In this document: one piece after another, positions 13,495 through 61,292 of the stretch
Position numbering within the stretch: the first letter of the stretch is position 1
Layout of the letters: each line of letters opens with the position of its first letter
NCBI GenBank assembly: GCA_032622095.1
Contig: CP136069.1
Span: forward strand, 10,744,036-10,808,035
Source of the DNA: Siphonodentalium dalli
Lineage: Eukaryota > Mollusca > Scaphopoda > Gadilida > Siphonodentaliidae
Reading direction: 5' to 3'
DNA: 64,000 nt
Made by a program: the position numbers and the translations under genes
The notes under the pieces: model-generated
What the model was told of the DNA's origin: nothing
What the model saw: only the letters and a program-made list of their open reading frames with translations
The model's database searches: none

Positions 13495-13882
13495 TTAACC
13501 CTTTACCCAACAAACCGGCCAAAACCGGCCAAATAAAGCTTCAACAGCCTAAAATATCTTCGGTCTGTCTCAATAGAACCATACAAATATGGATATCATT
13601 GGAACCGGCTCCTTGACCACATTGTGATAGTTACAGTTATGCCCTGTGCCAATGCATTCTCTTATATATGCGAGTCGACCATAGGTCGCCTCGCATATAT
13701 AAGAGAATGCATTTTTTTTAACACTTTTTACCATTTTTTCTTACATTCTTTAACAATTTTATAATTTTTAATGTGTTAAGCCAATGCATTCTCTTATATA
13801 TGCGAGGCGACCTATGGTCGACTCGCATATATAAGAGAATGCATTGGCACCCCTAGGGCCCTTCTGTTGGGTAAAGGGTTAA
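13495..13882. mobile_element. TTAA-A element (piggyBac-like MITE)
   Basis: TTAACCCTTTACCCAACA at the left and its complement TTGGGTAAAGGGTTAA at the right, with TTAA at both edges. Two hairpin modules (13644-13712, 13781-13849) in mirror orientation flank an A/T-rich spacer. TTAA target duplication and a CCCT start are hallmarks of piggyBac-type elements; there is no transposase. Confidence 0.9.
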
Positions 13883-14062
13883 GATTATTTTGAAAATTCC
13901 ATTTACCAGCCTAGATATTTCAAACTGGGAGAAGACATTTCTTCTGATTTGTTTCTTAGGGAGAAGTCATTTTTCTTTATTTGTTTCTTAGGGAGAAGTC
14001 ATTTATCTCTAGTTTCTTAAGGAGAAGCAATTTATTAAAACAAACCTATTTATCATTATTAT

Positions 14063-14240
14063 TAGCTCAACTTTACTTTGTAAAGTTCGAGCTATTGCCG
14101 TGGGTTGGTGTCCATCATCAGTCCGTCAACAATTTCGTTTGGCTCACCCTACAGGCCCCATCCCTCATCAAATCATCACCAAACTTCATATGGATCTTCG
14201 GGGTGACCTCCAATATGCTTGGAATGCTTTATGATAACTT
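14063..14240. repeat. ARR-2 fragment (AGCTCAACTT family)
   Basis: TTAGCTCAACTTTACTTTGT then GAGCTATTGCCGTGG and a CCGTCAACAATTTCGTTTGG unit match the start of the arrays at 20553 and 62380. Confidence 0.7.
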
Positions 14241-14601
14241 GCTTATCACTATATATTTACACACTAAGTGTTGTCATCACTAAATCCAGCATTCTGATTG
14301 GTCGGCGCCCACGTGGCTAGTTGCAGTTATTTCTCGGTGAATGCGCAACGCCTCATAACACCAAGCTAATAACACCATCGATACGTCATTAGGTTTGGAA
14401 ATACGAACACGTAATGTTTTGGGCGCATTTGGACTCGCGCAGGATTGACTTAATACATCATCGGGTTTCAATATGAAGATAAATTGTTCCTATTAACTTT
14501 TGGCAAGGGTGCTATTGGGTATTTTGGGCTGATCTTGTCACGATACACTTTTCGATTTAAATATATTTACAAAAGTGACTTTCTCGCTAAATGTACATAA
14601 A

Positions 14602-14764
14602 TATAAGGATTAACTGTCATGTGGACTATTTTTATGGAGATGTAACGGTGAGGTAAGTGGTCATAACTTGTATGTAAAACCCTTCGGGTTTTACACAAGT
14701 TATGTCCACTTACCCCACCGTTACATCTCCATAAAAACAGTCCACATGACAGTTAATCCTTATA
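14602..14764. repeat. Long palindrome with TTCGGG loop
   Basis: TATAAGGATTAACTGTCATG at the left pairs with CATGACAGTTAATCCTTATA at the right; the stem continues through GGAGATGTAACGGTG and ends in AAACCCTTCGGGTTT. This is a MITE-like element with about 75-bp arms. Confidence 0.92.
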
Positions 14765-15360
14765 TAACGGCTCAAACAGTTTGGGGAGTAAATCTCCGAG
14801 TCCTCATAATCAGCGAATCTACTATTCAAATTATCTCCAGAACAAACGCTAACTTCCTGCAGGCTGACACTGCGTCTTGTCTAAGTTTAGGTCCATCTTT
14901 AATGTCATGTCTGTGAGTGTCATTGTCCCATTCAACACTGTCCACTGCATTAACGTCAATGAAATGTGAGAAGCTATTGAATTGGGCGTATATATGACTT
15001 CACTCTTTTGCAATCAGTTTAAAACACCGTAAAATAAAGCCCTTTTGTTACACAAGAAGCCATTTCATAAATCTATGTTTACTCAATTGTGATGGCGTCT
15101 AAATAATCTATCTCTAAACGATCACTAACTAATTGCCCAGGGCGTGAAACTAACGCCCGATAGTATAGCTAATCGAACACATTCGTGATCTAATCCTTCT
15201 CGTCAGCTTTTGTGAACAATGTTAAGTCGTCTTGTGCTAAGCCGGTTAATTTTTTTTTTTTACAATAAATTGTAGTTCAGTCCGCGGTCGACACGAAAAA
15301 TGCCTGTAGCCATATTTTGAGCCACCAGCATATTTATTTTAGCCACTTCGTATTTTTTTT
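14765..15360. other. Intron sequence, nothing recognised
   Basis: AT-rich intron sequence before the exon 4 copies; no repeat, splice-worthy ORF or RNA gene seen. Confidence 0.45.
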
Positions 15361-15370
15361 TGCAATTTGC

Positions 15371-15705
15371 TAAAATGGCTGTTCAGCACGCTCAGAATGT
15401 TATAGCGGAGAAGTTTATCATTAACATAAATAATCTGACTGTCTATATTTGGACACCTCGTCCTGGTCTGGGCTCTTAATGTTATGTTATAGGAATCTCA
15501 GAAGAGTTTCTCACTAAGCTCGTTCAGCGCACTTAGATTCTTATAGCGGAGAAGTTTATCATTAATATAAATAATCTGACTGTCTATATTTGGACACCTT
15601 ATCTGGTCTGGGCTCTTAATGTTGTGTTTCGTCAATCTCAGAAGAGTATCTCACTAAGCTTGTTTAGCGCGCTTAGATCCTTATGTATCTAATATAAAAA
15701 ATCTG
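15371..15705 (+). pseudogene. Decayed tandem copies of Munc18 exon 4, upstream
   Basis: Copy a (15371-15430) matches the middle and end of the exon; copy b (15491-15590) starts AGGAATCTCAGAAGAG like the real acceptor junction; copy c (15629-15705) starts at CAATCTCAGAAGAG with the acceptor AG lost. Copies b and c start 140 bp apart, and the intervening intron sequence (GGACACCT...TGGTCT...CTTAATGTT) is repeated too, so the duplicated unit is exon plus flanking intron. Copy b has an in-frame TAG after 13 codons and copy c after 10, which disables them. Confidence 0.85.
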
Positions 15706-15756
15706 CCTGATGTGTTTTTTGGTGTCCTGGTCTTGAATCCTAATATTTTGTTTCAG

Positions 15757-15866
15757 GAATCTCAGAAGAGAATCTAGCTAAACTTGTACAGCACGCTCAG
15801 ATTCCGATGGAGGAGAAATGTATCATTAATAACATGCAAATGCTTGGCGTTCCCATCATACAGGAT
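15757..15866 (+). CDS. STXBP1: Munc18 exon 4 in window (about residues 417-453)
   Basis: Acceptor TTTGTTTCAG, donor GTAAGT. The two first bases complete a Gly codon; the exon then encodes [20 protein letters not shown] and ends [13 protein letters not shown] in phase 0. Human has [20 protein letters not shown] and MAHLGVPIVTD. The exon is embedded in its own debris: at least three decayed copies of the exon and its acceptor intron lie upstream, and three copies of its tail and donor lie downstream. Only this copy is open and has both a good acceptor and a good donor, so it is the functional one. Confidence 0.95.
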
Positions 15867-16157: not shown

Positions 16158-16279
16158 AATCATTGTATGGTGAAATGAACATTGTGGCAAAAATATACTG
16201 TTTTGTTTCATTGACAATCTGCACTCATTTCTGAGGGCCTCATTTTGGAAATTCAAAAGTCTGGAAATACTGTGTCCAA

Positions 16280-16412
16280 CATTTGTTAAGCCAATGTATT
16301 CTCTTATATATGCGAGGATCACTATGGGAGACTCGCATATATAAGAGAATGCATTGGCACAGGGTTTTCGCAAAATTTCAGGAAGCATCCAGTCATGGAA
16401 GTGGTAATAGAT
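16280..16412. mobile_element. TTAA-C element fragment with hairpin
   Basis: A hairpin variant with a GATCACTATGGGAGA loop, followed by GCACAGGGTTTTCGCAAAAT and CCAGTCATGGAAGTGGTAA, which is the degenerate right end of the CATGACGGGA family. Confidence 0.65.
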
Positions 16413-16757: not shown

Positions 16758-16826
16758 TATGTTTACCCATACCATAGTATGGTAAACATAGTGTCGTTGC
16801 CCGGATTGACCACTCGTCGTTCGTCC

Positions 16827-16868
<42 letters not shown>

Positions 16869-19716: not shown

Positions 19717-19810
19717 TTAGCATTTGGTAAAAAAGGGTTAATTAGTTGTTTGTGAAACAAAACATATTTTTCCTTTGCCTGTTCTCATTCACTTGATGCT
19801 ATTTTTGATG

Positions 19811-20022
19811 CATTAATGCCCTAAGTAATCGACTCCTTAACCACAGCAGAATTATGGGTAACTTTTCAGGATTTAGTCGGAAATATGGCTTGTTGCCATT
19901 CATCGGAAAGCTCTCCCTGAGAGCTTTCCGAATGGCAACAAGCCATATTTCCGACTAAATCCTGAAAAGTTACCCATAATTTTGCTGTGGTTAAGGAGTC
20001 GATTACTCAGGGCATTACTGTA
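19811..20022. mobile_element. PAL-1 palindromic element (Tc1/mariner-like ends)
   Basis: ATTAATGCCCTAAGTAATCG to CGATTACTCAGGGCATTACTG, self-complementary along its full 210 bp with the centre at CTCTCCCTGAGAG. Elsewhere the family is bounded by TA and reads CAGTAATGCCC...GGGCATTACTG, which fits a TA-duplicating MITE. Confidence 0.88.
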
Positions 20023-20040
20023 TGGGAAGTTAGTTTGATA

Positions 20041-20293: not shown

Positions 20294-23200
20294 TTAACCC
20301 TTTACCCAACAAACCGGCCAAAACCGGCCAAATAAAGCTTCAACAGCCTAAAATATCTTCGGTCTGTCTCAATAGAACCATACAAATATGGATATCATTG
20401 GAACCGGCTCCTTGACCACATTGTGATGGTTACAGTTATGCCTTGTGCCAATGCATTCTCTTATATATGTGAGTCGACCATAGGTCGCCTCGCATATATA
20501 AGTGAATGAATTGGCCTAAACAAAATCTTTTTTTATCACTTTTTACCATTTTTAGCTCAACTTACTTTTGTAAGTTTGAGCTATTGCCATGGCTTGGCGT
20601 CCGTCGTCCGTGTGTCCGTGTGTGCGTGTGTCCGTGTGTCCGTCAACAATTTCCTTTGGCGCGGGCTACAGGTCGTATCTTTGGTCTGATCTTTATGAAA
20701 TTTTGCATGAATGTTGACATTGACATGTAGATGGGAACGAGTCATTTTGGGGTCATTCGGCCAAAAAACATGGCCGCTGGTGGCCATCTTGGATTTCAAA
20801 ATTCAATCCATTGGCGCGGGCTACAGGTCGTACTGTTCTTTTGATCATCATGAAATTTGTCATGAATGTTAATATTGACATGTAGATGGGAACGAGTCAT
20901 TTTGGGGTCGTTCGGCCAAAAAACATGGCCGTCAGCAGCCATCTTGGATTTTACTCTTTGCATGACTAAATCATGTGGCGCGGGCTACAGGTCGTAGTTT
21001 TGATTGGAACTTCATGAAATTTGTCATGGATGTTAACAATGACATGTAGATGGGAACGAGTGATTTTGGGGTTGTTCGGCCAAAAAACATGGCCGCCAGC
21101 AGCCATCTTGGATATTACTCTTTGCATGACTAAATCCTTTGGCGCGGGCTACAGGTCGTACCTTTGGTCTGATCTTTATGAAATTTGTCATGAATGTTGA
21201 CATTGGCATGTAGATGGGAACGAGTCATTTTGGGGTCATTCGGCCAAAAAACATGGCCACTGGTGGCCATTTTGGATTTCAAAATTCAATCCATTGGCGC
21301 GGGCTACAGGTCGTACTGTTCGTCTGATCATTATGAAATTTGTCATGGATGTTAATATTAACATGTAGATGGGAACGAGTGATTTTGGGGTCGTTCGGCC
21401 AAAAAACATGGCCGCTGGCAGCCATCATGGATTTTACTCTTTGCATGACTAAATCCTTTGGCGCGGGCTACAGGTCGTACCTTTGGTCTGACCTTTATTA
21501 AATTTGTCATGAATATTGATATTGACATGTATATGGGAACGAGTCATTTTGGGGTCATACGGCCAAAAAACATGGCCACTGGCAGCCATCTTGGATTTTA
21601 CTCTTTGCATGACTAAATCCTTTGCCGCAGGCTACAGGTCGTAGTTTTGATCAGAACTTCATGAAATTTGTCATGGATGTTAACAATGACATGTCGATGG
21701 GAACGAGTGATTTTGGGGTTGTTCGGCCAAAAAACATGGCCGCCAGCAGCCATCATGGATTTTACTCTTTGCATGACTAAATCCTTTGGCGCGGGCTACA
21801 GGTCGTACCTATGGTCTGATCTTTATGAATTTTGTCATGAATGTTGACATTGACATGTAGATGGGAACGAGTGATTTTGGGGTTATTCGGCCAAAAAACA
21901 TGGCCGCTGGTGGCCATTTTGGATTTCAAAATTCAATCCATTGGCGCGGGCTACAGGTCGTGCTGTTCGTCTGATCATCATGAAATTTGTCATGGATGTT
22001 AATATTGACATGTAGATGGGAACGAGTGATTTTGGGGTCGTTCGGCCAAAAAACATGGCCGCTGGCAGCCATCATGGATTTTACTCTTTGCATGACTAAA
22101 TCCTTTGGCACGGGCTACAGGTCGTACCTATGGTCTGATCTTTATGAATTTTGTCATGAATGTTGACATTGACATGTAGATGGGAACGAGTGATCTTGGG
22201 GTCATTCGGCCAAAAAACATGGCCGCTGGTGGCCATTTTGGATTTCAAAATTCAATCCATTGGCGCGGGCTACAGGTCGTGCTGTTCGTCTGATCATCAT
22301 GAAATTTGTCATGGATGTTAATATTGACATGTAGATGGGAAACGAGTGATTTTGGGGTCGTTCAGCCAAAAAACATGGCCGCCAGCAGCCATCTTGGATT
22401 TTACTCTTTGCATGACTAAATTCTTTGGCGCGGGCTACAGGTTGTAGCTTTGGTCAGAACTTCATGAAATTTGTCATGGATGTTAACAATGACATGTAGA
22501 TGGGAACGAGTGATTTTGGGGTTGTTCGGCCAAAAAACATGGCCGCCAGCAGCCATCATGGATTTTACTCTTTGCATGACTAAATCCTTTGGCGCGGGCT
22601 ACAGGTCGTACCTATGGTCTGATCTTTATGAATTTTGTCATGAATGTTGACATTGACATGTAGATGGGAACGAGTCATTTTGGGGTCATTCGGCCAAAAA
22701 ACATGGCCGCTGGTGGCCATTTTGGATTTCAAAATTCAATCCATTGGCGCGGGCTACAGGTCGTGCTGTTCGTCTGATCATCATGAAATTTGTCATGGAT
22801 GTTAATATTGACATGTAGATGGGAAACGAGTGATTTTGGGGTCGTTCAGCCAAAAAACATGGCCGCCAGCAGCCATCTTGGATTTTACTCTTTGCATGAC
22901 TAAATTCTTTGGCGCGGGCTACAGGTTGTAGCTTTGGTCAGAACTTCATGAAATTTGTCATGGATGTTAACAATGACATGTAGATGGGAACGAGTGATTT
23001 TGGGGTCGATCGGCCAAAAAACATGGCCGCCAGCAGCCATCTTGGATTTTACTCTTTGCATGACTAAATCCTTTGGCGCAGGTTACAGGTCGTACCTTTG
23101 GTCTGACCTTTATGAAATTTGTCATGAATATTGATATTGACATGTATATGGGAACGAGTCATTTTGGGGTCATACGGCCAAAAAACATGGCCGCTGGCAG

Positions 23201-24032
23201 CCATCTTGGATTTCAAAATTCAATCCATTGGCACGGGCTACAGGTCGTACTGTTTGTCTGATCATGATATTTATCATGGATGTTAATATTAACATGTAGA
23301 TGGGAACGAGTCATTTTGGGGTCGTTTGGCTAAAAAACATGTCCGCCAGCAGCCATATTGGATTTTACTCTTTGCATGAATAAATCCTTTGGTGCGGGCT
23401 ACAGGTCGTAGCTTTGGTCGGAACTTCATGAAATTTGTCATGTATGTTAACAATGACATGTAGATGGGAAACGAGTCATTTTGGGGTCGTTCAGCCGAAA
23501 AACATGGCCGCCAGCAGCCATCTTGGATTTTACTCTTTGCATGACTAAATCCATTGGCACAGGCTACAGGTCATACCTTTGATCAGATCATTATGAGATT
23601 TGTAAAGGCTGTAGATTGGAACAAGTCATTTTGGGGTAATTCGGAAAAAAAACATGGCTGTCGGTGGCCATTTTAGAATTTACTCTTTGCATCAATAAAT
23701 CCTTTGGCACACCATAATCACCACATCCCTGATCCGATCATTATGAAACCTGTTATGAATGTTGATATTGACATGTACATCTAGTCTTACTTAGACATTT
23801 CAATTAGCACTTTTCCTATTCCTCCATTTACTGTCGACCATTAAATTATTCCCCTACCTAAGTTGAGCTACAGTGTCATTGACACTTTCATTTCTTACAT
23901 TCTTTAACAATTTTATAATTTTTAATGTGTTAAGCCAATGCATTCTCTTATATATGCGAGGCGACCTATGGTCGACTCGCATATATAAGAGAATGCATTG
24001 GCACAGGGTCGTTCTGTTGGGTAAAGGGTTAA
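20294..24032. mobile_element. TTAA-A element split by the ARR-2 array
   Basis: Left half 20294-20550 (TTAACCCTTTACCCAACAAA, hairpin 20448-20515 with two point changes, then TTTTTACCATTTTT) and right half 23886-24032 (TTTCTTACATTC, hairpin 23936-24001, TTGGGTAAAGGGTTAA) make one TTAA-A element. A 3.3 kb array is inserted in the poly-T spacer, with a few T bases present on both sides. Confidence 0.85.
20553..23885. repeat. ARR-2 array: about 20 diverged units of about 165 bp
   Basis: Begins TAGCTCAACTTA and ends TAAGTTGAGCTA (12-bp perfect inverted ends), then ACAGTGTCATTGACACT. Units carry GGCGCGGGCTACAGGTCGTA, GACATGTAGATGGGAACGAG, CATTTTGGGGTCATTCGGCC and AAAACATGGCCGC. Several unit types alternate, so the array expanded as multi-unit blocks: the block near 21790-22250 recurs at 22110 and 22590. 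Short ORFs here are repeat translations. Confidence 0.92.
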
Positions 24033-24774: not shown

Positions 24775-25172
24775 TTAACCCTTTACCCAACAGAAGGGAC
24801 ATTTGCCAATGCATTCTCTTATATATGCGAGTCGACCATAGGTCGCCTCGCATATATAAGAGAATGCATTGGCTTAACACATTAAAAATTATAAAATTGT
24901 TAAAGAATGTAAGAAAAAATGGTAAAAAGTGTTAAAAAAAGATTTTTTAGGCCAATGCATTCTCTTATATATGCGAGGCGACCTATGGTCGACTCGCATA
25001 TATAAGAGAATGCATTGGCACAGGGCATAACTGTAACTATCACAATGTGGTCAAGGAGCCGGTTCCAATGATATCCATATTTGTATGGTTCTATTGAGAC
25101 AGACCGAAGATATTTTAGGCTGTTGAAGCTTTATTTGGGCGGTTTTGGCCGGTTTGTTGGGTAAAGGGTTAA
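24775..25172. mobile_element. TTAA-A element, reverse orientation
   Basis: TTAA at both edges, short arm CCCTTTACCCAACAGAAGGG on the left and the long CCGGTTTTGGCC arm on the right; hairpins at 24803-24872 and 24951-25019. Confidence 0.92.
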
Positions 25173-27713: not shown

Positions 27714-28044
27714 TTAACCCTTTCATGACGGGACCTTCCTGAATTTTTGCAAAAACCCTGTGCCAATACATTCTATTATATATGCGAGTCGACAATAGGT
27801 CACCTCGCATATATAAGAGAATGCAATGGCCTGACAAATTTTATATTATTTTTTATAATTGTTAGAGAATGTAAGAAAAAATGATAAAAAATGAAAAAAA
27901 TTGTTAAAGAATATAAGAAAAAAATATAAAAATTATTATAGAATGTAAGAGGCAACCTATGGTCGACTCGCATATATAAGAGAATGCACTGGCACAGGGT
28001 CTTTAATGTTGCACCAGCGCAGCTCAGGTCATGAAAGGGATAAC
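27714..28044. mobile_element. TTAA-C element with hairpins
   Basis: Left TTAACCCTTTCATGACGGGA, right GGTCATGAAAGGGATAA, where the target copy has one change. The left hairpin is complete but mutated; the right one has lost its first arm (GGCAACCTATGGTCGACTCG onward). The short TGCACCAGCGCAGC stretch near the right end is typical of this family. Confidence 0.82.
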
Positions 28045-29298: not shown

Positions 29299-29515
29299 TT
29301 AACTCTTTCATGATGGATGCTGTGCTGGTGCAGCATTAAATGTCCTGTGCCAGTGCATTCTCTTATATATCCGATTCTGCCATAGGGAGCATCGCATATA
29401 TAAGAGAGTGCACTGGCTTACAAGGTCAAAGTAAATATTGTTAGGCCATTGCATTAAAAACTGGGTTTTCGAGGAAAAGAAAATTCATGCAGCTCCAGTC
29501 ATGGAAGGGGTAACT
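29299..29515. mobile_element. TTAA-C element, diverged
   Basis: TTAACTCTTTCATGATGG, a hairpin with a CGATTCTGCCATAGGGAGC loop, and the right end CCAGTCATGGAAGGGGTAA. The second hairpin is reduced to GTTAGGCCATTGCAT. Confidence 0.75.
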
Positions 29516-31912: not shown

Positions 31913-32361
31913 TTAACCCTTTCAGTGCCAGGAGCCGATCTCATCGGCCCTAATTTTTTTTTTTTTTTATATAGATTGTTTTGGGTTGAATTTTTTTTGG
32001 GTACCGGTATGTTTAAGCATGCTATAGCGAATTTAAAAACAAACTGGATAAAACCTTAGGAGCATGTTATAACTCAAAACTATCACCAAGTATTCATAGT
32101 AATAATTTTGATGCCCATTGAAAAAACGTAAGATTCCCTGGCACTAAACCTACAAAATAAGTCTGTTAAAGAATATAAGAAAAAATTATTAAAATTGTAA
32201 AAAATTGTAAAACATAATAACAAATGATGAAAAATTGTTAGGCCAATGCATTCTCTTATATATGCGAGGCGACCTATGGTCGACTCGCATATATAAGAGA
32301 ATGCATTGGCACAGGGTATATGGGTTGATACAAAAATCGGACTTGGCACAAAAAGGGTTAA
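31913..32361. mobile_element. TTAA-B element (GTGCCAGG ends)
   Basis: Left TTAACCCTTTCAGTGCCAGG then GCCGATCTCATCGGCC; right ACTTGGCACAAAAAGGGTTAA. TTAA on both sides. One complete hairpin (32243-32312) sits near the right end and the long AATTTAAAAACAAACTGGAT arm lies at the left. Confidence 0.9.
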
Positions 32362-35263: not shown

Positions 35264-35628
35264 ATATGTGACCCGCCATATCAAATCCAGTCGTAAGTCA
35301 GGATTTTTTTACCCTGTGCCAATGCATTCTCTTATATATGCGAGTCGACCATCATTTTTTTTTTTTAAATGATACATTTTTTAGGACATAAAATAAAAAA
35401 CATCCATTACCCTGCAGGGAGCCCCACACATATATAGAAGCATATAGAAGAGTGTCGTCTGCTCATGTTTGTCTGGGGCTCTGTATGGGTGAAATTATAA
35501 AATTGTTAAAGAATACAAGAAAAAATTATTAAAATTGAAAAAAATTGTTAGACCAATGCATTCTCTTATATATGCGAGGCGACCTATGGTAGACTCGCAT
35601 ATATAAGAGAATGCATTGGCACAGGGTT
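35264..35628. mobile_element. GTGACCC-family element, broken in hairpin
   Basis: ATGTGACCCGCCATATCAAA, TCCAGTCGTAAGTCAGG, then a hairpin that stops at its loop (GTCGACCAT) and runs into the GAGCCCCACACATATATAG cargo in reverse, followed by a second hairpin (35552-35621). The right GTGACCC end is missing. Confidence 0.78.
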
Positions 35629-36190: not shown

Positions 36191-36399
36191 GCTATTTTTA
36201 GTCAGACAATGACCGTGACCGGCCACTTATTTTTAGCCTTGCTCAATATATTTCGTAGTGCATTCAAAAAAGTACATTAGTTTCGTTGGTGAAAATGTTT
36301 TCCTCATTTGCCGTAGCTTTTCAAATTCGTTTCAGCATGAATAGATTGCATTAAAGTTGATGTTATGTGTTTAGATAGAACTATCACTCTATGTGAATA

Positions 36400-36580
36400 C
36401 AGTAATGCCCAAAGTAATTGACCACTTAACCACAGCAGAATTATGGGTAATTTTTCAGGATTTAGTCAGAAATATGGCTTGTTGCCATTCATCGGAAAGC
36501 CATATTTCCGACTAAATCCTGAAAAATTACCCATAATTCTGCTGTGGTTAAGGGGTCAATTACTTTGGGCATTACTGTAC
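36400..36580. mobile_element. PAL-1 element, CAAAGTAATTGACC subtype
   Basis: CAGTAATGCCCAAAGTAATT to AATTACTTTGGGCATTACTG; slightly different from the ATAATCGAC subtype, so at least two subfamilies exist. Part of one inner arm is missing. Confidence 0.9.
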
Positions 36581-36983: not shown

Positions 36984-37215
36984 TTAACCCTTCAAGGGAG
37001 CTTCATGAAATTTTGCAAAAACCCTGTGCCAATACCATAGGGAGCCTCGCATATATAAGAGAATAAATTCATCTGGCAAGATTTACCTTGACATTACCAT
37101 GTGCATTCTCGTATATATGCGAGGCTCCCTATGGGAGACTGGCATATATAAGAGAATGCACTGGCACAGGGTTTTTAATGCTGCACCAGCACAGCTTCAG
37201 TATATAAAGGGTTAA
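36984..37215. mobile_element. TTAA-C element
   Basis: TTAACCCTTCAAGGGAG to TATATAAAGGGTTAA with TTAA at both sides. The left hairpin has lost its first arm (CCTGTGCCAATACCATAGGG); the right hairpin at 37101-37168 is complete. GCACCAGCACAGC lies near the right end. Confidence 0.82.
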
Positions 37216-41106: not shown

Positions 41107-41332
41107 TTCATCTTGAACTTTATCAATAATCTTTTCGAAAATCGCTCGCATGACATTTGGAGGGTCATGACCTTTCTAGGGTCATGTAACATCATTGGCT
41201 TCTTTAACTTTCCTCTTAATAAAATCAGGCAATTGTCGGAATGCCATTATAAAGGAAGCGATCCCAGTGGACCTCGCCATATAGCTGAAAATTTGCACAT
41301 TGTTTACAAATTTTGAGATTACGACATCTAAT

Positions 41333-41562
41333 TAACCCTTTGAGTGCCAGGGGCCGATCTCATCGGCCCTAAACCTACAAAATAGGTCTGTTTAAGAATA
41401 TAAGAATAAATTATTAAAATTGTAAAAAAAAAAAAAAAAAAAAAAATTGTTAGGCCAATGCATTCTCTTATATATGCGAGGCGACTCGCATATATAAGAG
41501 AATGCATTGGCACAGGGTATATGGGTTGATACAAAAATCGGACCTGGCACTCAAAGGGTTAA
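41333..41562. mobile_element. TTAA-B element, short form
   Basis: TTAACCCTTTGAGTGCCAGG to GGCACTCAAAGGGTTAA with TTAA at both sides; a 22-base A-run in the spacer and one hairpin whose centre is reduced to GCGAGGCGACTCGC. Confidence 0.93.
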
Positions 41563-41600: not shown

Positions 41601-42597
41601 ATGGAGAATAATATTGTTCAAAGTAGATAGTTTTACAAATATTATTTCTAAATTCACGACACACATCGTCATTCTTAGATATTAATTAAATGCAGTGACT
41701 ATCGATGGTGAAATTTCTTTTGTTAGTTTATCGCCGATAAATGCGTCCCGAATCGAGAAGTAAATATTTACAATTGAGTGTATAGTTTAGACAATATTTT
41801 CTATGGAGTGGTACAGTCGATTTGCTTCAGATTTTCGCGGTGTTAGTGGAATGCTACATTCCTCCAATTGGCATAGCTAACTTATCAGTTTCACGCACCC
41901 GAACACGTACATAATATGTCTTTAAACACTAAAAAGATTAGAATATACATGTAGTGTAATTTATAGTTTTATTGAATAAAACATGAACAAATTTATTTGA
42001 TTCAGCTGTGACGTAACTGAAGTGTGGTATAATTTCCGGTTTAACCCTTTGAGTGCCAAGTCCGATTTTTTTTGCTCGCATATATAAGAGAATGCATTGG
42101 CCTAACAATTTTTCATCATTTGTATTATTATTTTTTTTTTTTTTTTTTACAATTTTAATAAATTTTTCTTTTATTCTAACTCTTTCAGTGCCAGACTTAT
42201 TTTGTATGTTTAGTGCTAGGGAATCTTACGCTTTTCATAGGCATCAAAATTATTACTATGAATACTTGGTGATAGTTTTGAGTTATAACATGCCCGTAAG
42301 GTTTTACCCAGTTTGTTTTTAAATTCGCTATAGCATGCTTAAGCATACCAAAAAAAAAAAAAAAAAATTATTTTTTTTAGGGTTGATTTTACAGACCGTA
42401 AATTAGGGCCGATCAGATCGGCCCCTGGCACTGAAAGGGTTAACAGTGTGTCCATTTTTTCGGAAATGAATCGGTTTACAAGGAAAATAAATTCGGATGC
42501 GTACTAATTTTGCAAAATCAATTAAATGAAAAAGGTCGGGGCGCCGAAATAGGGGAGGGGCGGGTCACCGGAAACACAGGTCTTTTTTATTTTGGCC
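41601..42597. repeat. Dispersed repeat, interrupted by a TTAA-B element
   Basis: The left part matches 1865-2197; the right part matches 49140-49430 and ends with a Harbinger-like end (ACACAGGTCTTTTTTATTTT, GGCCTAA). It is interrupted at 42041-42443. Confidence 0.85.
42041..42443. mobile_element. TTAA-B element with empty-site paralogue
   Basis: Filled site TTTCCGGTTTAACCCTTTGA ... GAAAGGGTTAACAGTGTG; the paralogue at 49253-49275 reads TTTCCGGTTTAACAGCACAC with a single TTAA. The hairpin is reduced to its second arm (GCTCGCATATATAAGAG onward). Confidence 0.95.
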
Positions 42598-45619: not shown

Positions 45620-46486
45620 TAGGGCCCTGCGAATTGGGCATTTTAATTTCGAATCGAATCAGCCAAATGATTCCGAATCGAATCGAATCGAATCTCGAAT
45701 CGAATCATTGCATCTGTACTCAAGAGTGAAGATATAGATATCACTGGACTGAGTGGCCATACCAGTATCAATTTGCTCACTTGGTAACGACGATAAGTGA
45801 TCGTCGGTATATAATGTAAATATTATCCATAAAAGGATCAAATTCTCATTTAACCAATTAGGTGTGCATTTGTTGTGTCTATCTCTGCTATAAAATAATG
45901 AAACAATATCTTAACCCTTTACCCAACAGAAGGGCCCTGTGCCAATGCATTCTCTTATATATGCGAGTCGACCATAGGTCGCCTCGCATATATAAGAGAA
46001 TGCATTGGCTTAACACATTAAAAATTATAAAATTGTTAAAGAATGTAAGAAAAAATGGTAAAAAGTGTTAAAAAAGATTTTTGTTTAGGCCAATGCATTC
46101 TCTTATATATGCGAGGCGACCTATGGTCGACTCGCATATATAAGAGAATGCATTGGCACAGGGCTAACTATAACTATCACAATGTGTTCAAGGAGCCGGT
46201 TCCAATGATATCCATATTTGTATGGTTCTATTGAGACAGACCGAAGATATTTTAGGCTGTTGAAGCTTTATTTGGCCGGTTTTGGCCGGTTTGTTGGGTA
46301 AAGGGTTAAGCAACAACAACAACAACAACAACGTCAGTAAGCACATTCATGCAGCTGAAGTTCGACATATATGAAATTTTGCTAGATCAGTCGTGCAATG
46401 CATCGGTGGTCTATATAGTATGGCTAGAAATGAATCGAATCGAATCAGACAAAAGATTCCAAATAACATCGATTCGCAGGGCCCTA
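45620..46486. mobile_element. TAGGGCCCTGCGAA element with nested TTAA-A
   Basis: TAGGGCCCTGCGAATTGGGC at the left and GATTCGCAGGGCCCTA at the right, with GAATC repeats inside both ends. A TTAA-A element (45911-46309, hairpins 45942-46010 and 46089-46158) is inserted in it. Similar ends occur at 50817 and 51192. Target duplication not clear. Confidence 0.75.
46312..46331. repeat. (CAA)n microsatellite
   Basis: Six to seven CAA units directly after the TTAA-A element; other CAA runs are at 31871 and 33053. Confidence 0.9.
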
Positions 46487-46502: not shown

Positions 46503-46942
46503 CAAGCCTTGAAATAGGGTGTCTGTCATTTGCAGAATGAGGTCCCCAGAGGGTGAATTTAGTGATGCTACCCCGCATAGCGGGCTAGCATCACCAAATT
46601 CACCCTCTGGGGACCTCATTCTGCTTAGGCCATCAACTGCTATGGCAGACCTAGGATCAGAATGAAGTTCCCAGTTGAAGTTGGTGATGTTCACCCATTG
46701 GGCACCTAAATTATGAATGTTATCTTCTGCAAATTAGGGGATATAGAAACTTCCCAGAAGGGAAAAAGTATCTAAAACCAATGTTAATTTGATACAGTAG
46801 ATACTTCCCAGAAGATCAAGCCTAAGCAGAATGAGGTCCCCAGAGGGTGAATTTGGTGATGCTAGCCCGCTATGCGGGATAGCATCACTAAATCCACCCT
46901 CTGGGGACCTCATTCTGCAAATGACAGACACGCTATTTGCAA
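46503..46942. repeat. Two PAL-2 palindromes in mirror arrangement
   Basis: First palindrome 46532-46625, spacer with GGGGATATAGAAACTTCCCA, second palindrome 46827-46920. CTTGAAATAGGGTGTCTGTC and GACAGACACGCTATTTGCAA close the ends, so the pair behaves as one inverted-repeat unit of about 430 bp. Confidence 0.88.
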
Positions 46943-48335: not shown

Positions 48336-48725
48336 TTAACCCTTTACTCAACAAACCGACCAAAAACGGCCAAATAAAGCTGCAACAGCCTAAATTATCT
48401 TGGGTCTGTATCAATAAAACCATACAAATATGGATATCATTGGAACCGACTCATTGACCACATTGTGATGGTTACAGTTATGCCCTGTGCCAATGCATTC
48501 TCTTATATATGCGAGTCGACCATAGGTCGCCTCGCATATATAAGAGAATGCATTGGCCTAAAAAAAATATTTTTTTACCATTTTTTCTTACATTCTTTAA
48601 CAATTTTATAATTTTTAATGTGTTAAGCCAATGCATTCTCTTATATATGCGAGGCGACCTATGGTCGACTCGCATATATAAGAGAATGCATTGGCACAGG
48701 GCCATTCTGTTGGGTAAAGGGTTAA
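48336..48725. mobile_element. TTAA-A element
   Basis: TTAACCCTTTACTCAACAAA to TTGGGTAAAGGGTTAA; hairpins 48488-48555 and 48626-48696; TTAA both sides. Confidence 0.93.
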
Positions 48726-49518: not shown

Positions 49519-49775
49519 TTAACCCTTTGAGTGCCAGGGGCCGATCTCATCGGCACTAAACCTACAAAATAAGTCTCGCACTGAAAGAGTTAAAGAATAT
49601 AAGAAAAAATTACTAAAATTGTAAAAAATAATAACAAATGATGAAAATTTGTTAGGCCAATGCATTCTCTTATATATGCGAGGCGACCTATGGTTGACTC
49701 GCATATATAAGAGAATGCATTGGCACAGGGTATATGGGTTGATACCAAAATCGGACTTGGCACTGAAAGGGTTAA
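49519..49775. mobile_element. TTAA-B element
   Basis: TTAACCCTTTGAGTGCCAGG to GGCACTGAAAGGGTTAA, TTAA both sides, one complete hairpin (49657-49725). Confidence 0.93.
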
Positions 49776-49928: not shown

Positions 49929-50328
49929 TTAACCCTTTACCCAACAGAAGGGCCCTGTGCCAATGCATTCTCTTATATATGCGAGTCGACCATAGGTCGC
50001 CTCGCATATATAAGAGAATGCATTGGCTTAACACATTAAAAATTATAAAATTGTTAAAGAATGTAAGAAAAAATGGTAAAAAGTGTTAAAAAAAGATTTT
50101 GTTTAGGCCAATGCATTCTCTTATATATGCGAGGCGACCTATGGTCGACTCGCATATATAAGAGAATGCATTGGCACAGGGTATAACTGTAACTATCACA
50201 ATGTGGTCAAGGAGCCGGTTCCAATGATATCCATATTTGTATGGTTCTATTGAGACAGACCGAAGATATTTTAGGCTGTTGAAGCTTTATTTGGCCGGTT
50301 TTGGCCGGTTTGTTGGGTAAAGGGTTAA
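49929..50328. mobile_element. TTAA-A element, reverse orientation
   Basis: TTAACCCTTTACCCAACAGA to GGTTTGTTGGGTAAAGGGTT with TTAA at both sides; hairpins 49958-50026 and 50106-50175. Confidence 0.94.
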
Positions 50329-52863: not shown

Positions 52864-53337
52864 TATGTGACCCGCCATATCAAATCCAGTCGTAAGTCGG
52901 GATTTTTTTACCCTGTGCCAATGCATTCTCTTATATATGCGAGTCGACCATAGGTCGCCTCGCATATATAAGAGAATGCATTGGCCTAACAATTTTTTAT
53001 CATTTTTTTTAAAATTAATGTTTCTTACAATTTTTAGGACATCAAATAAAAAACATCCATTACCCTGCAGGGAGCCCCACACATATATAGAAGCATATAG
53101 AAGAGTGTCGTCTGCTCATGTTTGTCTGGGGCTCTGTATGGGTGAAATTATAAAATTGTTAAAGAATACAAGAAAAAATTATTAAAATTGTAAAATTGTA
53201 AAAAATTGTTAGGCCAATGCATTCTCTTATATATGCGAGGCGACCTATGGTCGACTCGCATATATAAGAGAATGCATTGGCACAGGGTAAAAAAAATCCA
53301 GACTTACAACTGGATTTGATATGGCGGGTCACATATA
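52864..53337. mobile_element. GTGACCC-family element, complete
   Basis: ATGTGACCCGCCATATCAAA and TCCAGTCGTAAGTCGGGA at the left, complement at the right ending ATATGGCGGGTCACAT. Hairpins 52917-52984 and 53213-53281 flank a spacer holding the GGGAGCCCCACACATATATA ... GTTTGTCTGGGGCTCTGTAT cargo. This is the best reference copy of the family. Confidence 0.92.
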
Positions 53338-54230: not shown

Positions 54231-54448
54231 CCGTAATGCCCTAAGTAATCGACCTCTTAACCAAAGCAGAATTATGGGATAACTTTTCAGGATTTAGTCG
54301 GAAATATGGCTTGTTGCCATTCATCGGAAAGCTCTTGGGGAGAGCTTTCCGATGAATGGCAACAAGCCTTATTTCCGACTAAATCCTGAAAAGTTACCCA
54401 TAATTCTGCTTTGGTTAAGAGGTCGATTACTTAGGGCATTACTGTAGG
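54231..54448. mobile_element. PAL-1 element
   Basis: CCGTAATGCCCTAAGTAATC to GATTACTTAGGGCATTACTG; complete palindrome. Confidence 0.92.
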
Positions 54449-54461
54449 TCAAATAAAAATA

Positions 54462-54770
54462 AAGTGTTCAAGTCTGAGTTTAGTGTTCCTGTCATTTGCA
54501 GAATGAGGTCCCCGGAGGGTGAATTTGGTGACGCTATCCCACACAGTGGGCTAGCATCACCAAATTCACCCTCTGTGGACCTCATTCTGCATGGCCTCAT
54601 GTGCTATGGGAGACATAGACTCAGATTGAAGTTCCCAAATGGTGAATATTGTGATGTACACCCATTGGGAACCTCGGTTATGCAATGTGTCGATGGGGGA
54701 TAGCGTCACTAAATTCACCCTCTGGGGACCTCATTCTTCAAATTACAGGCACACTAAACTCATGCTTGAA
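54462..54770. repeat. PAL-2 composite
   Basis: Same layout as 28462-28720, with the GTTCCCAAATGGTGAA...CCCATTGGGAACC inner stem, followed by half a palindrome. Confidence 0.82.
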
Positions 54771-54854: not shown

Positions 54855-55190
54855 TCAACAAAAGAGGGTTTCTATAGAAACAACTCAGAAAATTGATTCC
54901 TCCAGGCCAATATAAAAACATTACTAGATTTACTAACACGCCTTGAAATAGGGTGTCTTTCATTTGCAGAATGAGGTCCCCAGAGGGTGAATTTAGTGAT
55001 GCTACCCCCGCATAGCGGGCTAGCATCACCAAATTCACCCTCTGGGGACCTTTCTGCTTACACCTCAGCAGAATGAGGTTCCCAGAGGGGGAATTTGGTG
55101 ATGCTAGCCCGCTATGCGGGGTAGCATCACTAAATTCACCCTCTGGGAACCTCATTCTGCAAATGACAGACACCCTATTTCAAGACTTGT
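54855..55190. repeat. Inverted copy of the unit at 44815-45148
   Basis: AAAAGAGGGTTTCTATAGAA, CAACTCAGAAAATTGATTCC, then two PAL-2 palindromes (54966-55052 and 55068-55160). It reproduces both palindromes and the 80-bp tail in opposite orientation. Confidence 0.9.
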
Positions 55191-55267
55191 TTACTAATAC
55201 GTCCCTCTAGACCCTATTTTTAGTCCCTAACATTTTGTTTTATTTGGATAATTTTATGTGAACTTAA

Positions 55268-56215
55268 TATGTGACCCGCCATATAATCCACAGGGAGCCT
55301 CACACAGATGGAAGCATGCACTACATAGTGTCGTCTGCTCCAGGCTGTTTGGGGCTCTCTATGGGTTAATAGACCCGCCATATCAAATCCAGTCGTAAGT
55401 CGGGATTTTTTTACCCTGTGCCAATGCATTCTCTTATATATGCGAGTCGACCATAGGTCGCCTCACATATATAAGAGAATGCATTGGCCTAACAATTTTT
55501 TATAATTTTTTCTTGTATTCTTTAACAATTTTATAATTTCACCCATACAGAGCCCCAGACAAACATGAGCAGATGACACTCTTCTATATGCTTCTATATA
55601 TATGTGGGGCTCCCTGCAGGGTAATGGATGTTTTTTATTTGATGTCCTAAAAATTGTAAGAAACATTTATTTAACCCTTTACCCAACAGAAGGGCCCTGT
55701 GCCAATGCATTCTCTTATATATGCGAGTCGACCATAGGTCGCCTCGCATATATAAGAGAATGCATTGGCTTAACACATTAAAAATTATAAAATTGTTAAA
55801 GAATGTAAGAAAAAATGGTAAAAAGTGTTAAAAAAAGATTTTTTTTAGGCCAATGCATTCTCTTATATATGCGAGGCGACCTATGGTCGACTCGCATATA
55901 TAAGAGAATGCATTGGCACAGGGCTAACTGTAACTATCACAATGTGGTCAATGAGCCGGTTCCAATGATATCCATATTTGTATGGTTTTATTGAGACAGA
56001 CCCAAGATATTTTAGGCTGTTGAAGCTTTATTTGGCCGGTTTTGGCCGGTTTGTTGGGTAAAGGGTTAAAAAACATGATAAAAAATTGTTAGGCCAATGC
56101 ATTCTCTTATATATGCGAGGCGACCTATGGTCGACTCGCATATATAAGAGAATGCATTGGCACAGGGTAAAAAAAATCCCGACTTACGACTGGATTTGAT
56201 ATGGCGGGTCACATT
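55268..56215. mobile_element. GTGACCC-family element with two nested insertions
   Basis: ATGTGACCCGCCATATA, then a CACAGGGAGCCTCACACAGA...GGGGCTCTCTATGGGTT stem unit, after which the end restarts ACCCGCCATATCAAATCC (a duplicated target). Hairpin 55422-55489, cargo, then a TTAA-A element (55671-56069, hairpins 55701-55769 and 55849-55917), second hairpin 56093-56161, and the right end ATATGGCGGGTCACAT. Confidence 0.9.
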
Positions 56216-56868: not shown

Positions 56869-56900
56869 CGGGCCGCTAATAGAATGGAGGGCTGTTAATA

Positions 56901-57341
56901 ATAACCCTTTCAGTGCCAGGGGCCGATCTCATCGGGCCTAATTTACGGTCTGTAAAATCGGCCCTAAATTTGGGTTTAATTTTTTTGGGTATGCTTAAGC
57001 ATGCTATAGCGAATTTAAAAACAAACTGGATAAAACCTTAGGGGCATGTTATAACTCAAAACTATCACCAAGTATTGATAGTAATAATTTTGATGCCCAT
57101 GAAAAACGTAAGATTCCCTGGCACTAAACCTACAAAATAAGTCTGTTAAAGAATATAAGAAAAAATTATTAAAATTGTAAAAAATTGTAAAAAATAATAA
57201 CAAATGATGAAAAATTGTTAGGCCAATGCATTCTCTTATATATGCGAGGCGACCTATGGTCGACTCGCATATATAAGAGAATGCATTGGCACAGGGTATA
57301 TGGGTTGATACAAAAATCGGACCTGGCACTGAAAGGGTTAA
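56901..57341. mobile_element. TTAA-B element
   Basis: ATAACCCTTTCAGTGCCAGG to GGCACTGAAAGGGTTAA; one TTAA has become ATAA. Hairpin 57224-57293 complete. The flanks GGGCCGCTAATAGAATG and AAGGGCCACTAATAGAAC suggest it sits in another repeat or a duplicated target. Confidence 0.88.
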
Positions 57342-59075: not shown

Positions 59076-59371
59076 CTTATGTGTTATTTTGTTCACTGTA
59101 TAAATATCGTGTTTCCTTCTTTTATTGTAATTATAAGTCATAAACGCATTTAATTTATCATGTCTCCAATTCAAATCAAATAATAATCAAAATTTGTGAT
59201 GCAAATTGTCCATTCCAACTAGTATCCAGGGACATCAGGTAAATATATGATAAAATCAACGCTCTTTTAAAGAAGATCTTGGCCGCTGGCCTTCTTCAGC
59301 AAGTATATATTCGTATAATTACATCTTGCATATGCATATACATGTACATGTACACGTAAACAATAATTTTA

Positions 59372-59429
59372 CAGTTCACTTGACCGGATGGTCATATTGT
59401 ACGTTATAAACATCCGGTCAAGTGAACTG
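59372..59429. repeat. Hairpin, 19-bp perfect arms
   Basis: CAGTTCACTTGACCGGATG and CATCCGGTCAAGTGAACTG around a 20-base spacer. Confidence 0.92.
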
Positions 59430-59570
59430 ATAGCCAAAGCTTTTGTAAAAGAGCATTGTTTTCATCATAATATACAAAAGGTCAAAATTACTGACATCTT
59501 ATGATGTACATGTATAATATCATGTCACTAAGCTAGTAGTGTGCATATATCATGCAAGAACACGATAATA

Positions 59571-59652
59571 ACATGAACATTGTACAGCGTAGCATACAGG
59601 CAGCAGCTTTATCATGAACATTGTACAGCGTAGCATACAGGCAGCAGCTTTG
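59571..59652. repeat. 41-bp tandem duplication
   Basis: ATGAACATTGTACAGCGTAG ... CAGGCAGCAGCTTT twice in a row. Confidence 0.92.
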
Positions 59653-59693
59653 AAATCGCCACCTTGAGAAAGAATCATTATGATGATACCAGT

Positions 59694-59896
59694 ACAGTAA
59701 TGCCTTAAATAATCGACTCCTTAACCACAACATTTTCAGGATTTAGTTGGAAATATGGCTTGTTGCCATTCATCGGAAAGCTCTCACTGAGAGCTTTCCG
59801 ATGAATGGCAACAAGCCATATTTCCAACTAAATCCTGAAAATTTACCCATAATTCTGCTGTGTTTTAGGAGTCAATTATTTAGGGCTTTACTGTAT
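59694..59896. mobile_element. PAL-1 element
   Basis: CAGTAATGCCTTAAATAATC to TTAGGGCTTTACTG; nearly complete, small deletion in the left arm. Confidence 0.9.
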
Positions 59897-60169
59897 CTCT
59901 CTTATGTTTAGTAGAGAGCTTCCGCTTTTAGTGATCGTAGGGTGTGTTAGGGTTTCTACGTGTGTATTCTTGGTAACTTGTAAAATATTCTTGTGTATCA
60001 TGTGGATGAGACTTGGCGACAATAATGTTACTTGTAATATATGTGAACGACGAAACACAAGTTGCAATAAAACATAATAAATGCAATAGAATTCTTGAAT
60101 TATTAACGCAAACTGCTGTGTACATGTATGCCTCAACAACTGTTGATTATAAGCAAATGCTACGTTAAT

Positions 60170-60553
60170 TTAACCCTTTACCCAACAAACCGGCCAAAAC
60201 CGGCCAAATAAAGCTCCAACAGCCTAAAATATCTTCGGTCTGTCTCAATAGAGCCGTACAAATATGGATATCATTGGAACCGGCTCCTTGACCACATTGT
60301 GATAGTTACAGTTATGCCCTGTGCCAATGCATTCTCTTATATATTCGAGTCGACCATAGGTCGCCTCGCATATATAAGAGAATGCATTGGCCTAAAAAAA
60401 ATCTTTTTTTTAACACTTTTTACCATTTTTTCTTACATTCTTTAACAATTTTATAATTTTTAATGTGTTAAGCCAATGCATTCTCTTATAAATGCGAGGC
60501 GACCTATAAGAGAATGCATTGGCACAGGGCCCTTCTGTTGGGTAAAGGGTTAA
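60170..60553. mobile_element. TTAA-A element
   Basis: TTAACCCTTTACCCAACAAA to TTGGGTAAAGGGTTAA, TTAA both sides. Left hairpin 60322-60389 complete; the right one (60473-60529) is missing about 14 bases at its loop. Confidence 0.93.
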
Positions 60554-60767
60554 TATAGCATGCAATTTTTCAGGCATCATAAACGTTCGTCAGCTCATCG
60601 AATATGTCCACATTTTGGACATTTATAAATGCTCATGACTCGAAACAGAGTGTGGGGTAACTGCTGTTACTAAAAGTCTTTTGTCAACATGACATTTATG
60701 CACAATCACGTAATTAGCAAAATGTTATTTAAAATAGAATTATACCCTGTAAATTCAAGTAAACATA

Positions 60768-61292
60768 CAGTAATGCCCTAAATAATCTCCGAATAAATCC
60801 TGAAAAATTACCCATAATTCTGCTGTGGTTAACCATTTACCCAACAGAACGGCCCTGTGCCAATGCAAACCATAGGTCGCCTCGCATATATAAGAGAATG
60901 CATTGGCTTAACACATATTAAAAATGATAAAATTTTCAAAGAATGTAGAAAAATATTATAAAAATTGTTAAAAAATGTAAGAAAAAATTATAAAATTGTT
61001 AAAGAATATAAGAAAAAAATGGTAAAAAAGACTTTTTTTTAGGCCAATGCATTCTCTTATATATGCGAGGCGACCTATGGTCGACTCGCATATATAAGAG
61101 AATGCATTGGCACAGGGCATAACTGTAACCATCACAATGTGGTCAATGAACCGGTTCCAATGATATCCATATTTGTATGGTGTTATTGAAACAGACCGAA
61201 GATATTTTAGGCTGTTGAAGCTTTATTTGGGCGTTTTTGGCCGTTTTGTTGTGTAAAGGGTTAATGAGTTGATTATTTAGGGCATTAATGTA
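60768..61292. mobile_element. PAL-1 element containing a TTAA-A element
   Basis: CAGTAATGCCCTAAATAATC, shortened arm, then TTAA-A inserted at GCTGTGGTTAA (60829-61264, TTAA at both ends), then TGAGTTGATTATTTAGGGCA. The left hairpin of the inserted element has lost part of its first arm (CCAATGCAAACCATAGG); the right one (61044-61112) is complete. The insertion site is the same as in 43088-43624. Confidence 0.92.

Follow-up and report, generated by a model that had tools for sequence, protein, structure and literature searches.

A polar hairpin shared by four families of small transposons in Siphonodentalium dalli

The window and its hairpin

The stretch of DNA considered here, called the window throughout, comprises 64,000 nucleotides of contig CP136069.1 of the scaphopod Siphonodentalium dalli, whose genome counts 2.23 Gb in nine contigs. 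Four families of small, non-autonomous DNA transposons, similar to miniature inverted-repeat transposable elements (MITEs) and named E1 to E4 below, hold one and the same kind of hairpin, and the end sequences of all four are present in the window. How does a single hairpin come to lie within such different ends? A cassette built on it has probably been handed from family to family, by nested capture and by the exchange of short patches.

The hairpin is 67 bp long, with 26-bp arms, a T/C mismatch, five further pairs (CGACC/GGTCG) and an ATA loop. It is polar: CCCTGTG lies on the outside, (CC/CT)TAACA or CCTAAAA on the inside, and the T/C mismatch gives the direction. An 81-nt stretch with one hairpin folds as DNA at -36.3 kcal/mol, against an average of -6.9 for its shuffles (z -14.1).

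An earlier note on this DNA had described such a hairpin as repeated across four element families. The repetition is real and lies far above chance, although details of the description are corrected below: the 20-base arm CCAATGCATTCTCTTATATA has 81 matches in the window at up to three mismatches, against none in 100 dinucleotide shuffles. Paired arms form 36 intact hairpins, besides fragments, and the arms reach from 13204 to 61110, beginning slightly before the start given in that note. Across the whole genome, 180,836 matches to the 26-base arm lie on one strand and 180,488 on the other (about 361,000, with one mismatch allowed), and a reversed control pattern has none; since the matches split about evenly by strand, the hairpins number of the order of 180,000. 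Rfam gave no match in the window at gathering thresholds, and none of the listed open reading frames (ORFs) outside a minisatellite exceeds 139 codons.

Four families of elements

E1, E2 and E3 have TTAA ends with CCCTTT, and E4 has GTGACCC ends. The earlier note had spoken of four unrelated outer ends; this holds for E4, which differs from the first base, but not among E1, E2 and E3, which have TTAACCCTTT in common. Beyond the first ten bases, the outer flanks of these three appear unrelated by eye. In general, piggyBac-type MITEs duplicate TTAA, end in CC[C/T]T and are non-coding. Complete copies of E1 to E3 carry TTAA at both ends and the CC[C/T]T motif as CCCTTT after it, while the inner end of E2 and several ends of the solo elements described below read CTCTTT.

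The layout differs by family. In E1 (TTAACCCTTTACCCAACA) a long left flank is followed by a pair of hairpins with an 81-bp spacer between them and by a short right end. E2 (TTAACCCTTTSAGTGCCAGG) runs from a left part through a spacer and one hairpin to its right end. E3 (TTAACCCTTYCATGAC) is more diverged; at 13 of the 20 loci compared, a second arm begins 94-97 bases past the point where the first hairpin starts. The interior of E4 (GTGACCCGCCATATCAAATC) measures 220 bp, and the element contains two hairpins. The mirrored pair that had been ascribed to all complete copies is therefore the rule in E1, E3 and E4 but not in E2, which normally has a single hairpin: no facing pair within 500 bp was seen among the first 100 listed E2 right flanks. 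The spacers are, as had been claimed, of one type in being AT-rich and containing TTGTTAAAGAATRYAAG, but the E1 spacer is unlike that of E2 and E4.

With its GTGACCC ends and a target duplication that is mostly the 4-bp ATAT, E4 is another kind of element than E1 to E3. ATAT stands on both sides in six of the ten usable pairs of E4 ends and TTAA in none of the ten; L085, which repeats L084 in inverted form, and L071, which is cut short at one side, were left out (loci fetched from the genome carry L numbers). An E4 can also insert into the arm of a hairpin, at its ATATAT (L086). As a separate observation, the E4 interior (for example in 52867-53332) contains ACCCTGCAGGGAGCCCC...GGGGCTCTGTATGGGT, which resembles a nested element with its own inverted ends, and a relative of it lies near the hairpin of L023.

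The hairpins and elements of the window referred to in this account are the following.

24806-24872, forward strand: typical 67-bp hairpin by folding, with 26-bp arms, T/C mismatch, CGACC/GGTCG and ATA loop
13495-13882, forward strand: complete E1 (TTAA end, left flank, hairpin, spacer, hairpin, right end)
24775-25172, reverse strand: complete E1
45911-46309, reverse strand: complete E1
48336-48725, forward strand: complete E1
49929-50328, reverse strand: complete E1
55671-56069, reverse strand: complete E1, flanked by two E4 fragments
60170-60553, forward strand: E1 with complete ends and one damaged hairpin
60829-61264, reverse strand: E1 with complete ends and one damaged hairpin
41332-41562, forward strand: E2 with solo-derived left part, spacer, one shortened hairpin and E2 right end
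49519-49775, forward strand: E2 with a remnant of an internal terminal inverted repeat (TIR), CGCACTGAAAGAGTTAAAGAATATAAG, at the junction of solo and spacer
42041-42443, reverse strand: E2 copy whose hairpin is rearranged, with a remnant of the internal TIR (TGGCACTGAAAGAGTTAGAATAAAAG)
56901-57341, forward strand: E2, long form
31913-32361, forward strand: E2, long form
27714-28043, forward strand: E3 with the newer hairpin type and an AT-rich spacer
29299-29513, forward strand: E3 with the older hairpin type
16291-16357, reverse strand: E3 hairpin with the older loop stem (TCTCCCATAGTGATC)
37098-37164, reverse strand: E3 hairpin with loop stem CTCCC/GGGAG
52867-53332, forward strand: complete E4 (GTGACCC ends, ATAT on both sides, two hairpins)
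35268-35619, forward strand: damaged E4, left end present, with unrelated sequence beyond CACAGGG on the right side
55370-55487, forward strand: left part of E4 with hairpin
56094-56212, reverse strand: right part of E4 with hairpin
19833-19847, forward strand: CTCCTTAACCACAGC, the unoccupied form of a repeat site that solo E2 fills at L110 and L116

By a strict rule on the outer flank, the hairpins of the window fall to E1 left (11), E1 right (9), E2 (6), E4 (5) and E3 (4), and the one left unassigned (35553-35619) is the right side of the damaged E4. The same families recur elsewhere. Forty loci (L007-L046), picked within the first 4 Mb of contig C1 for an exact arm, hold the families of the window, and the rule assigned 49 of the 53 hairpins at 36 of them; the other four are those of L023, L034 and the pair L038/L041, the pair having one flank in common. 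The remaining loci (L008, L010, L043, L044) have no fully paired hairpin and look E1- or E3-like by eye. Two side observations concern these loci. L038 and L041 have an E4-type interior and, past the hairpin, an outer flank of no known family; as the flank is common to both, they are probably one duplicated locus. L043 and L044 have an E3-type end and a one-armed hairpin beside long arrays of ~30-bp units (TAAAAATTGTTAAAGAATGTAAGAAAAAATGA-like), possibly a source of the spacer.

Further samples were picked by an exact E4 end (L067-L086), by a nearly exact hairpin (L087-L106 and L123-L134), by a 22-mer of the E1 left flank (L156-L175) and by the compensated loop stem of E3 (L176-L195, of which L176 and L177 have one flank in common). 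The genome-wide lists give the first 100 places in contig order and include tandem copies, such as ten 11-kb repeats on C1 among the E2 right flanks. A fifth large end family was considered and rejected: hairpins preceded by C or T number 972 genome-wide, and by eye the first 100 are mostly point variants of E1, E3 and E4 junctions, with a few single junctions of no known family. Families with A or G before the hairpin were sampled through the C1 loci.

One hairpin, different flanks

The 67-bp consensus sequences of the E1 left, E1 right, E2 and E4 hairpins show no differences, and despite this identity the outer flanks of the three families are not alike by eye. Between E1, E2 and E4 the interior is more conserved than the TIRs.

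E3 stands apart. In its common hairpin type CGACC/GGTCG is replaced by CTCCC/GGGAG and, in many cases, CCAATGC/GCATTGG by CCAGTGC/GCACTGG. These changes are compensated, so that pairing is kept; among 34 hairpins of this type the T/C mismatch is present in 31, the other three being read from the opposite side, and the ATA loop in 30, with three more when read from that side. Compensation at pairs 29/39 and 30/38 in this set follows from its selection by the compensated stem. Where the partner letters were left free, 49 of 53 listed hairpins with outer TC had the matching GA by eye. The pairing of the E3 stem may have been kept by selection or by copying from arm to arm.

At 19 of 20 loci with the E3 loop type the flanks are also E3 by eye. 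Judged from such comparisons, the hairpin appears to be tied to its family in E3 and free of it in E1, E2 and E4. The earlier note had taken a hairpin phylogeny that mirrors the families completely as the mark of plain divergence; the consensus sequences, which stand in for a tree here, do not mirror the families completely, since E3 has its own type but E1, E2 and E4 share one. Copies of E3 in the window that combine the newer stem with an AT-rich spacer (27714-28043) are possible intermediates.

How faithfully do the flanks accompany the hairpin? The E2 right flank has 13,398 places in the genome, and at 99 of the first 100 it runs into a hairpin, point changes allowed; ten of these 100 lie in one tandem array. 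The E1 left flank has 43,625 and does so at 98 of the first 100, the remaining two leading into rearranged remnants of a hairpin. Eighteen of 20 fetched E4 ends have a hairpin within ~60 bases; in L077 an insertion stands between the end and the hairpin, and in L067 the arm is truncated. No hairpin-free E1 or E4 occurs in these flank samples. As flanks and hairpin are nearly always found together, there is no sign of a cassette that inserts by itself, and the earlier suggestion of a core that itself moves finds no support in these counts.

Hybrid hairpins

In the first samples, outer and inner flanks belong to the same family, the one clear exception being L073, which has an E4 outer and an E1 inner flank. 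A search of the genome at up to one mismatch revealed more such cases: the E4-like outer flank TTTTTACCCTGTG is joined to an E1 inner flank at 180 places (the first 100 listed on contigs C1-C8), and an E2 outer to an E1 inner flank at 47 places on all nine contigs. The native combination, GGGCCCTGTG with the E1 inner flank, has 31,180 places, an undercount due to an AACGG variant of E1 that consumes the allowed mismatch.

Twenty E4-like/E1 hybrids from eight contigs were fetched. Sixteen consist of an E1 TIR, a patch ending in a T-run and ACCCTGTG, the hairpin and the E1 core; on their far side lies a normal E1 left flank in 15 and a second E4-like patch in L106. There are nine distinct junctions among the 16, and six copies share CAACAG joined to TCGGGATT at different TTAA sites, either through spread of one hybrid or through a recurrent event. 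A longer E4 string (TCGGGATT or more) is present in eight of the 20. The patched side has no TIR in L088, L096, L098 and L104; L098 has an E1 core with E4 flanks on both sides, and the flank is duplicated over ~75 bp in L088 and, in locally repeated sequence, over ~55 bp in L096.

The 12 fetched E2/E1 hybrids are more varied. L123 and L126 are E1 with an E2 patch; conversely, L128 is an E2 with a 37-base E1 patch, L134 an E2 with an 11-base insertion of E1 type, and L127 an E2 whose hairpin is duplicated around an 11-base E1-type stretch. L125 and L131 each combine one E2 end with one E1 end opposite it (with a changed TTAA at the E1 end of L125), and in L129, L130, L132 and L133 the E2 side lacks a full TIR.

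Exchange around a common core, which the earlier note had offered as an explanation, is well supported by these dispersed hybrids of both kinds with their several junctions, together with the identical consensus in E1, E2 and E4. The fetched hybrids are mostly short patches beside the hairpin, and it is likely that the hairpin guides the exchange. Patches with their start at the hairpin and their return a few tens of bases further on would fit template switching better than a long conversion tract.

Origin of E2 by nested capture

In some E2 copies the left part is separated from the spacer by what is left of an E2-type end, TGGCACTGAAAGAGTTAA, after which the spacer sequence AGAATATAAG follows. 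The internal E2 TIR was found at 361 places in the genome, and by eye 88 of the first 100 lead into spacer, 11 into other DNA and one is unclear. Ten of these 11 were fetched, and seven are hairpin-free solo elements with a recognisable left end (L107, L108, L110, L111, L112, L113, L116); in L109 an E1 replaces the left part of the solo, and L114 and L115 are truncated or decayed.

The solo E2 at L110 and L116 sits in CTCC-TTAA-CCACAGC, and the window has seven unoccupied examples of this site, counted on either strand; among E1 to E3, the evidence from empty sites concerns solo E2. The composites L117 and L119 show the next step, with a solo bearing both its ends, then spacer, hairpin and E2 right end. 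Most fetched E2 copies lack 12 bp of the inner TIR, and the 361 exact inner TIRs compare with 13,398 E2 right flanks. E2 arose, then, when a solo TTAA element inserted into the spacer and its inner end was subsequently lost, and each of these steps survives in the genome. The same first step is found with another family in L092, where an E1 hybrid is inserted in the TTAA of an E2 spacer. Nested capture accounts for E2 apart from its far end.

A side observation belongs to the landing site. A second palindrome (AGGATTTAGTCGGAAATATGGCTTGTTGCCATTCATCGGAAAGCTCTC) lies at 19808-20023, 36398-36579, 54277-54399 and 59732-59842, and some of its copies end in CTCCTTAACCACAGCAGAATTATGGG; the TTAA of these ends is the one in which solo E2 landed at L110 and L116.

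Search for an autonomous partner

Profile PF13843 gave 128 match rows from 116 scored candidates in the genome, many of them with open frames. The surroundings of 36 piggyBac loci were read, six with 1.5 kb on both sides, ten with ~1 kb on both sides and 20 upstream only, and ends were recognised in part of them. The sequence read beside these 36 loci contains no hairpin arm. Ends near that of E2 are TTAACTCTTTCACTGCCAAACG (L152) and TTAACACGTTGAGTGCCGG (L001, L063). Separately, one piggyBac group with a 562-codon frame has an in-frame TGA in 14 listed rows, and a TAG as well in two; it may be an amplified dead copy or, possibly, a case of recoding.

Is the hairpin conserved for a function?

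Private changes in transposon copies are mostly made after insertion, and shared changes mark subfamilies. Both were counted in 27 complete E1 copies, namely eight from the window and 19 of the 20 picked by the left 22-mer (L173 was dropped as incomplete, and the 22-mer stretch was excluded from the non-hairpin figure). Private changes amount to 22 in 3,536 cells of the hairpins (0.62%) and 54 in 6,188 elsewhere (0.87%), which is not a significant difference (p = 0.19). Changes common to at least two copies are another matter, with six in the hairpin cells against 141 elsewhere; taken together, all changes give p = 1e-15, a value to be read with the fact that shared cells are not independent. 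The E1 hairpin decays like its surroundings in single copies yet hardly differs between subfamilies, so that either the source copies need the hairpin or exchange keeps it uniform.

In E4, eight copies with checked orientation (the truncated L071 excluded) gave no contrast, with 15 private changes in 1,072 hairpin cells and 29 private and five shared changes in 1,745 cells of the interior. Lower divergence of the hairpin in single copies had been hinted at by the eight window copies of E1 and by E4; it was rejected, for the private changes do not differ significantly in the 27 E1 copies and the E4 contrast was gone after L079 was re-oriented.

Could the hairpin have an evolutionary interest of its own? 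This is possible. As a selfish, cis-acting module it would not transpose, but would raise the copy number of the ends attached to it, or exchange into them; it would spread by template switching and through TTAA and ATAT landing sites, be taken up by elements of at least two transposase types, and stay nearly letter-identical in source lineages. Without a contrast in single copies the odds of this reading are lowered, as are those of a function in cis, and in this full form it is rather unlikely.

Mechanism and alternatives

What would be handed between the four MITE-like families is the 67-bp polar hairpin with its AT-rich, TTAA-containing spacer. E1 to E3 are TTAA elements of the piggyBac type, presumably moved by piggyBac-like transposases, and E4 is an element of another kind. 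By the first route, nested capture, a solo TTAA element landed in the TTAA of a spacer, and its inner end was largely lost from later copies. The unit now bounded by the solo's outer end and the far end across the hairpin is the single-hairpin E2. By the second, patch exchange, synthesis at the hairpin would continue on the hairpin of another family, copy a short stretch of its flank, and return or end at nearby sequence. Together the two routes offer a likely account of how the four families came by one cassette. E1, E2 and E4 may have been founded by the same processes.

Several points weigh against this account. The hybrids are few, reaching at most ~0.7% of the number of native E1 right hairpins, and the six copies with a common junction may go back to one event that spread. 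For 12 of the 20 fetched E4-like hybrids, the T-run before ACCCTGTG alone (in L097 with GGGA) points to the donor, and the 11-base change of L124 could be native rather than a patch. Nothing separates template switching in replication from conversion in the repair of breaks. The far flank of E2 is without a hairpin at one of 100 listed places, and a two-hairpin ancestor of E2 was not seen. Since no hairpin-free ancestor of E1 or E4 was found, the founding swaps are inferred. A transposase with E1 or E3 ends was not found either, and the autonomous piggyBac with the same ends that the earlier note proposed to look for did not appear: none of the 36 loci, whose ends were partly unrecognised, has ends identical to those of E1, E2 or E3.

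One competitor to template switching is ordinary ectopic gene conversion or unequal recombination between copies of a hairpin that is in no way special. Very many near-identical 67-bp tracts supply the homology for it, and chimeras are described for Galileo in Drosophila mojavensis in the portion of that paper used here (PMC3573991), but short patches with small insertions at the return junctions look, by eye, more like switching; conversion of this kind is a possibility to be taken seriously, without being the one we favour. Much the same may be said of a hairpin that is needed in cis for mobilisation or amplification and that the families share by descent and selection, an idea we hold possible but would not put first. 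The scarcity of shared changes in E1 hairpins suits it, and so do two hairpin types that differ by compensated pairs and retain the T/C mismatch and ATA loop. However, the private changes do not differ, the shared cells are not independent, the eight E4 copies show no contrast, exchange between source copies would equally keep the hairpin uniform, and no hairpin lies near the 36 piggyBac loci.

Simple divergence, by which four families would descend from one element that changed at its ends only, could explain why TTAACCCTTT is common to E1, E2 and E3 and why the E3 loop type goes with E3 flanks, but it is very unlikely in view of the unrelated ends and different target duplication of E4, the dissimilar flanks around an identical hairpin, and the hybrids. 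If instead hairpin, spacer and hairpin formed a transposon that inserted into four hosts, CCCTGTG...CACAGGG would be its inverted ends, and L096, where a cassette that lacks known outer ends stands between ~55-bp direct repeats, would be a free copy. Yet no target duplication is seen around the cassette in the standard families, the flanks accompany the hairpin as counted above, E2 has only one side, and L096, lying in locally repeated sequence, can be a product of repair, all of which makes a mobile cassette very improbable. High-copy palindromes are hard to assemble, and an artefact of assembly has to be considered for that reason; it is hardly credible where the same junction is met again on different contigs and at different TTAA sites (L089, L091, L094, L105, L106) and hybrids have TTAA flanks.

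Other repeats

A third palindrome family, GCAGAATGAGGTCCCCAGAGGGTGAATTTAGTGATGCTAGCCCGC, with arms of ~45 bp, occurs in the window at 2629-2725, 46532-46918, 54497-54591, 55006-55160 and other places. The minisatellite at 7332-12039 has ~229 copies of a 21-bp unit with strong strand skew, a G+C content of 59% in 8001-12000, and three overlapping forward ORFs of 1,574-1,623 codons. A satellite with units of ~155-164 bp and the motifs CATGGCCGCC...GGCCATCTTG forms two arrays, at 20652-23603 and 62454-63813. Elsewhere, tandem arrays at 727-786 kb and 820-926 kb of C1, with units of ~14.5 kb and 11.2 kb, contain E1 and E2 copies.

Known systems and outlook

What follows on published systems draws on portions of the papers cited. 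The closest precedent found there is CMITE of Acropora corals (Wang et al. 2010, PMC2872659), in which TTAA families with different TIRs have a conserved interior of unknown role; the elements are ~100 bp long with a 75-bp interior, and ~1,600 copies are estimated in A. millepora. The likeness extends to CC[C/T]T ends, to TIRs that differ around an interior conserved between families, to an element that has another family's interior, and to a nested TTAA insertion that gave a new mobile element, CMITE-IN (PMC2872659). A hairpin pair, a non-TTAA family and patch hybrids are not described in that text, and a 60-bp CMITE interior taken from it showed no resemblance by eye, unaligned, to the hairpin cassette. 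The same paper gives as background that piggyBac-type MITEs have a TTAA duplication, CC[C/T]T ends and no coding capacity (PMC2872659); here, by contrast, one core serves several types of ends, E4 included.

Galileo, a foldback-like transposon of D. mojavensis, is similar in having chimeric ends from different subfamilies and interiors from another subfamily, read as exchange. It differs as a member of the P superfamily with long TIRs and with exchange between subfamilies of one element, and 12 chimeras have non-matching 7-bp flanks (PMC3573991). The 7-bp target duplication of Foldback and Galileo is absent here, where the duplications are TTAA or 4-bp ATAT. A short domain common to otherwise different families, found also inside a DNA-transposon MITE, is known from the highly conserved domains of short interspersed elements (SINEs) and MER6; those families are retroposon-based, and the V domain is proposed to have entered MER6 through a SINE insertion rather than by patch exchange (PMC6887750). 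Among the open-licence papers that literature searches listed, judged from titles and the beginnings of abstracts, none was recognised as dealing with a hairpin cassette common to TTAA and non-TTAA elements.

By what means do non-autonomous elements acquire new ends, persist beyond their transposase and attain very high copy numbers? This is an open question, and in S. dalli several steps that bear on it are preserved side by side: a solo element, a nested composite, the loss of an inner end, and dispersed hybrids with breakpoints beside a defined hairpin. The case connects families with different target duplications. It also makes testable whether a hairpin promotes exchange or amplification, the same question that the CMITE paper, in the portions used here, leaves open for its own interior.

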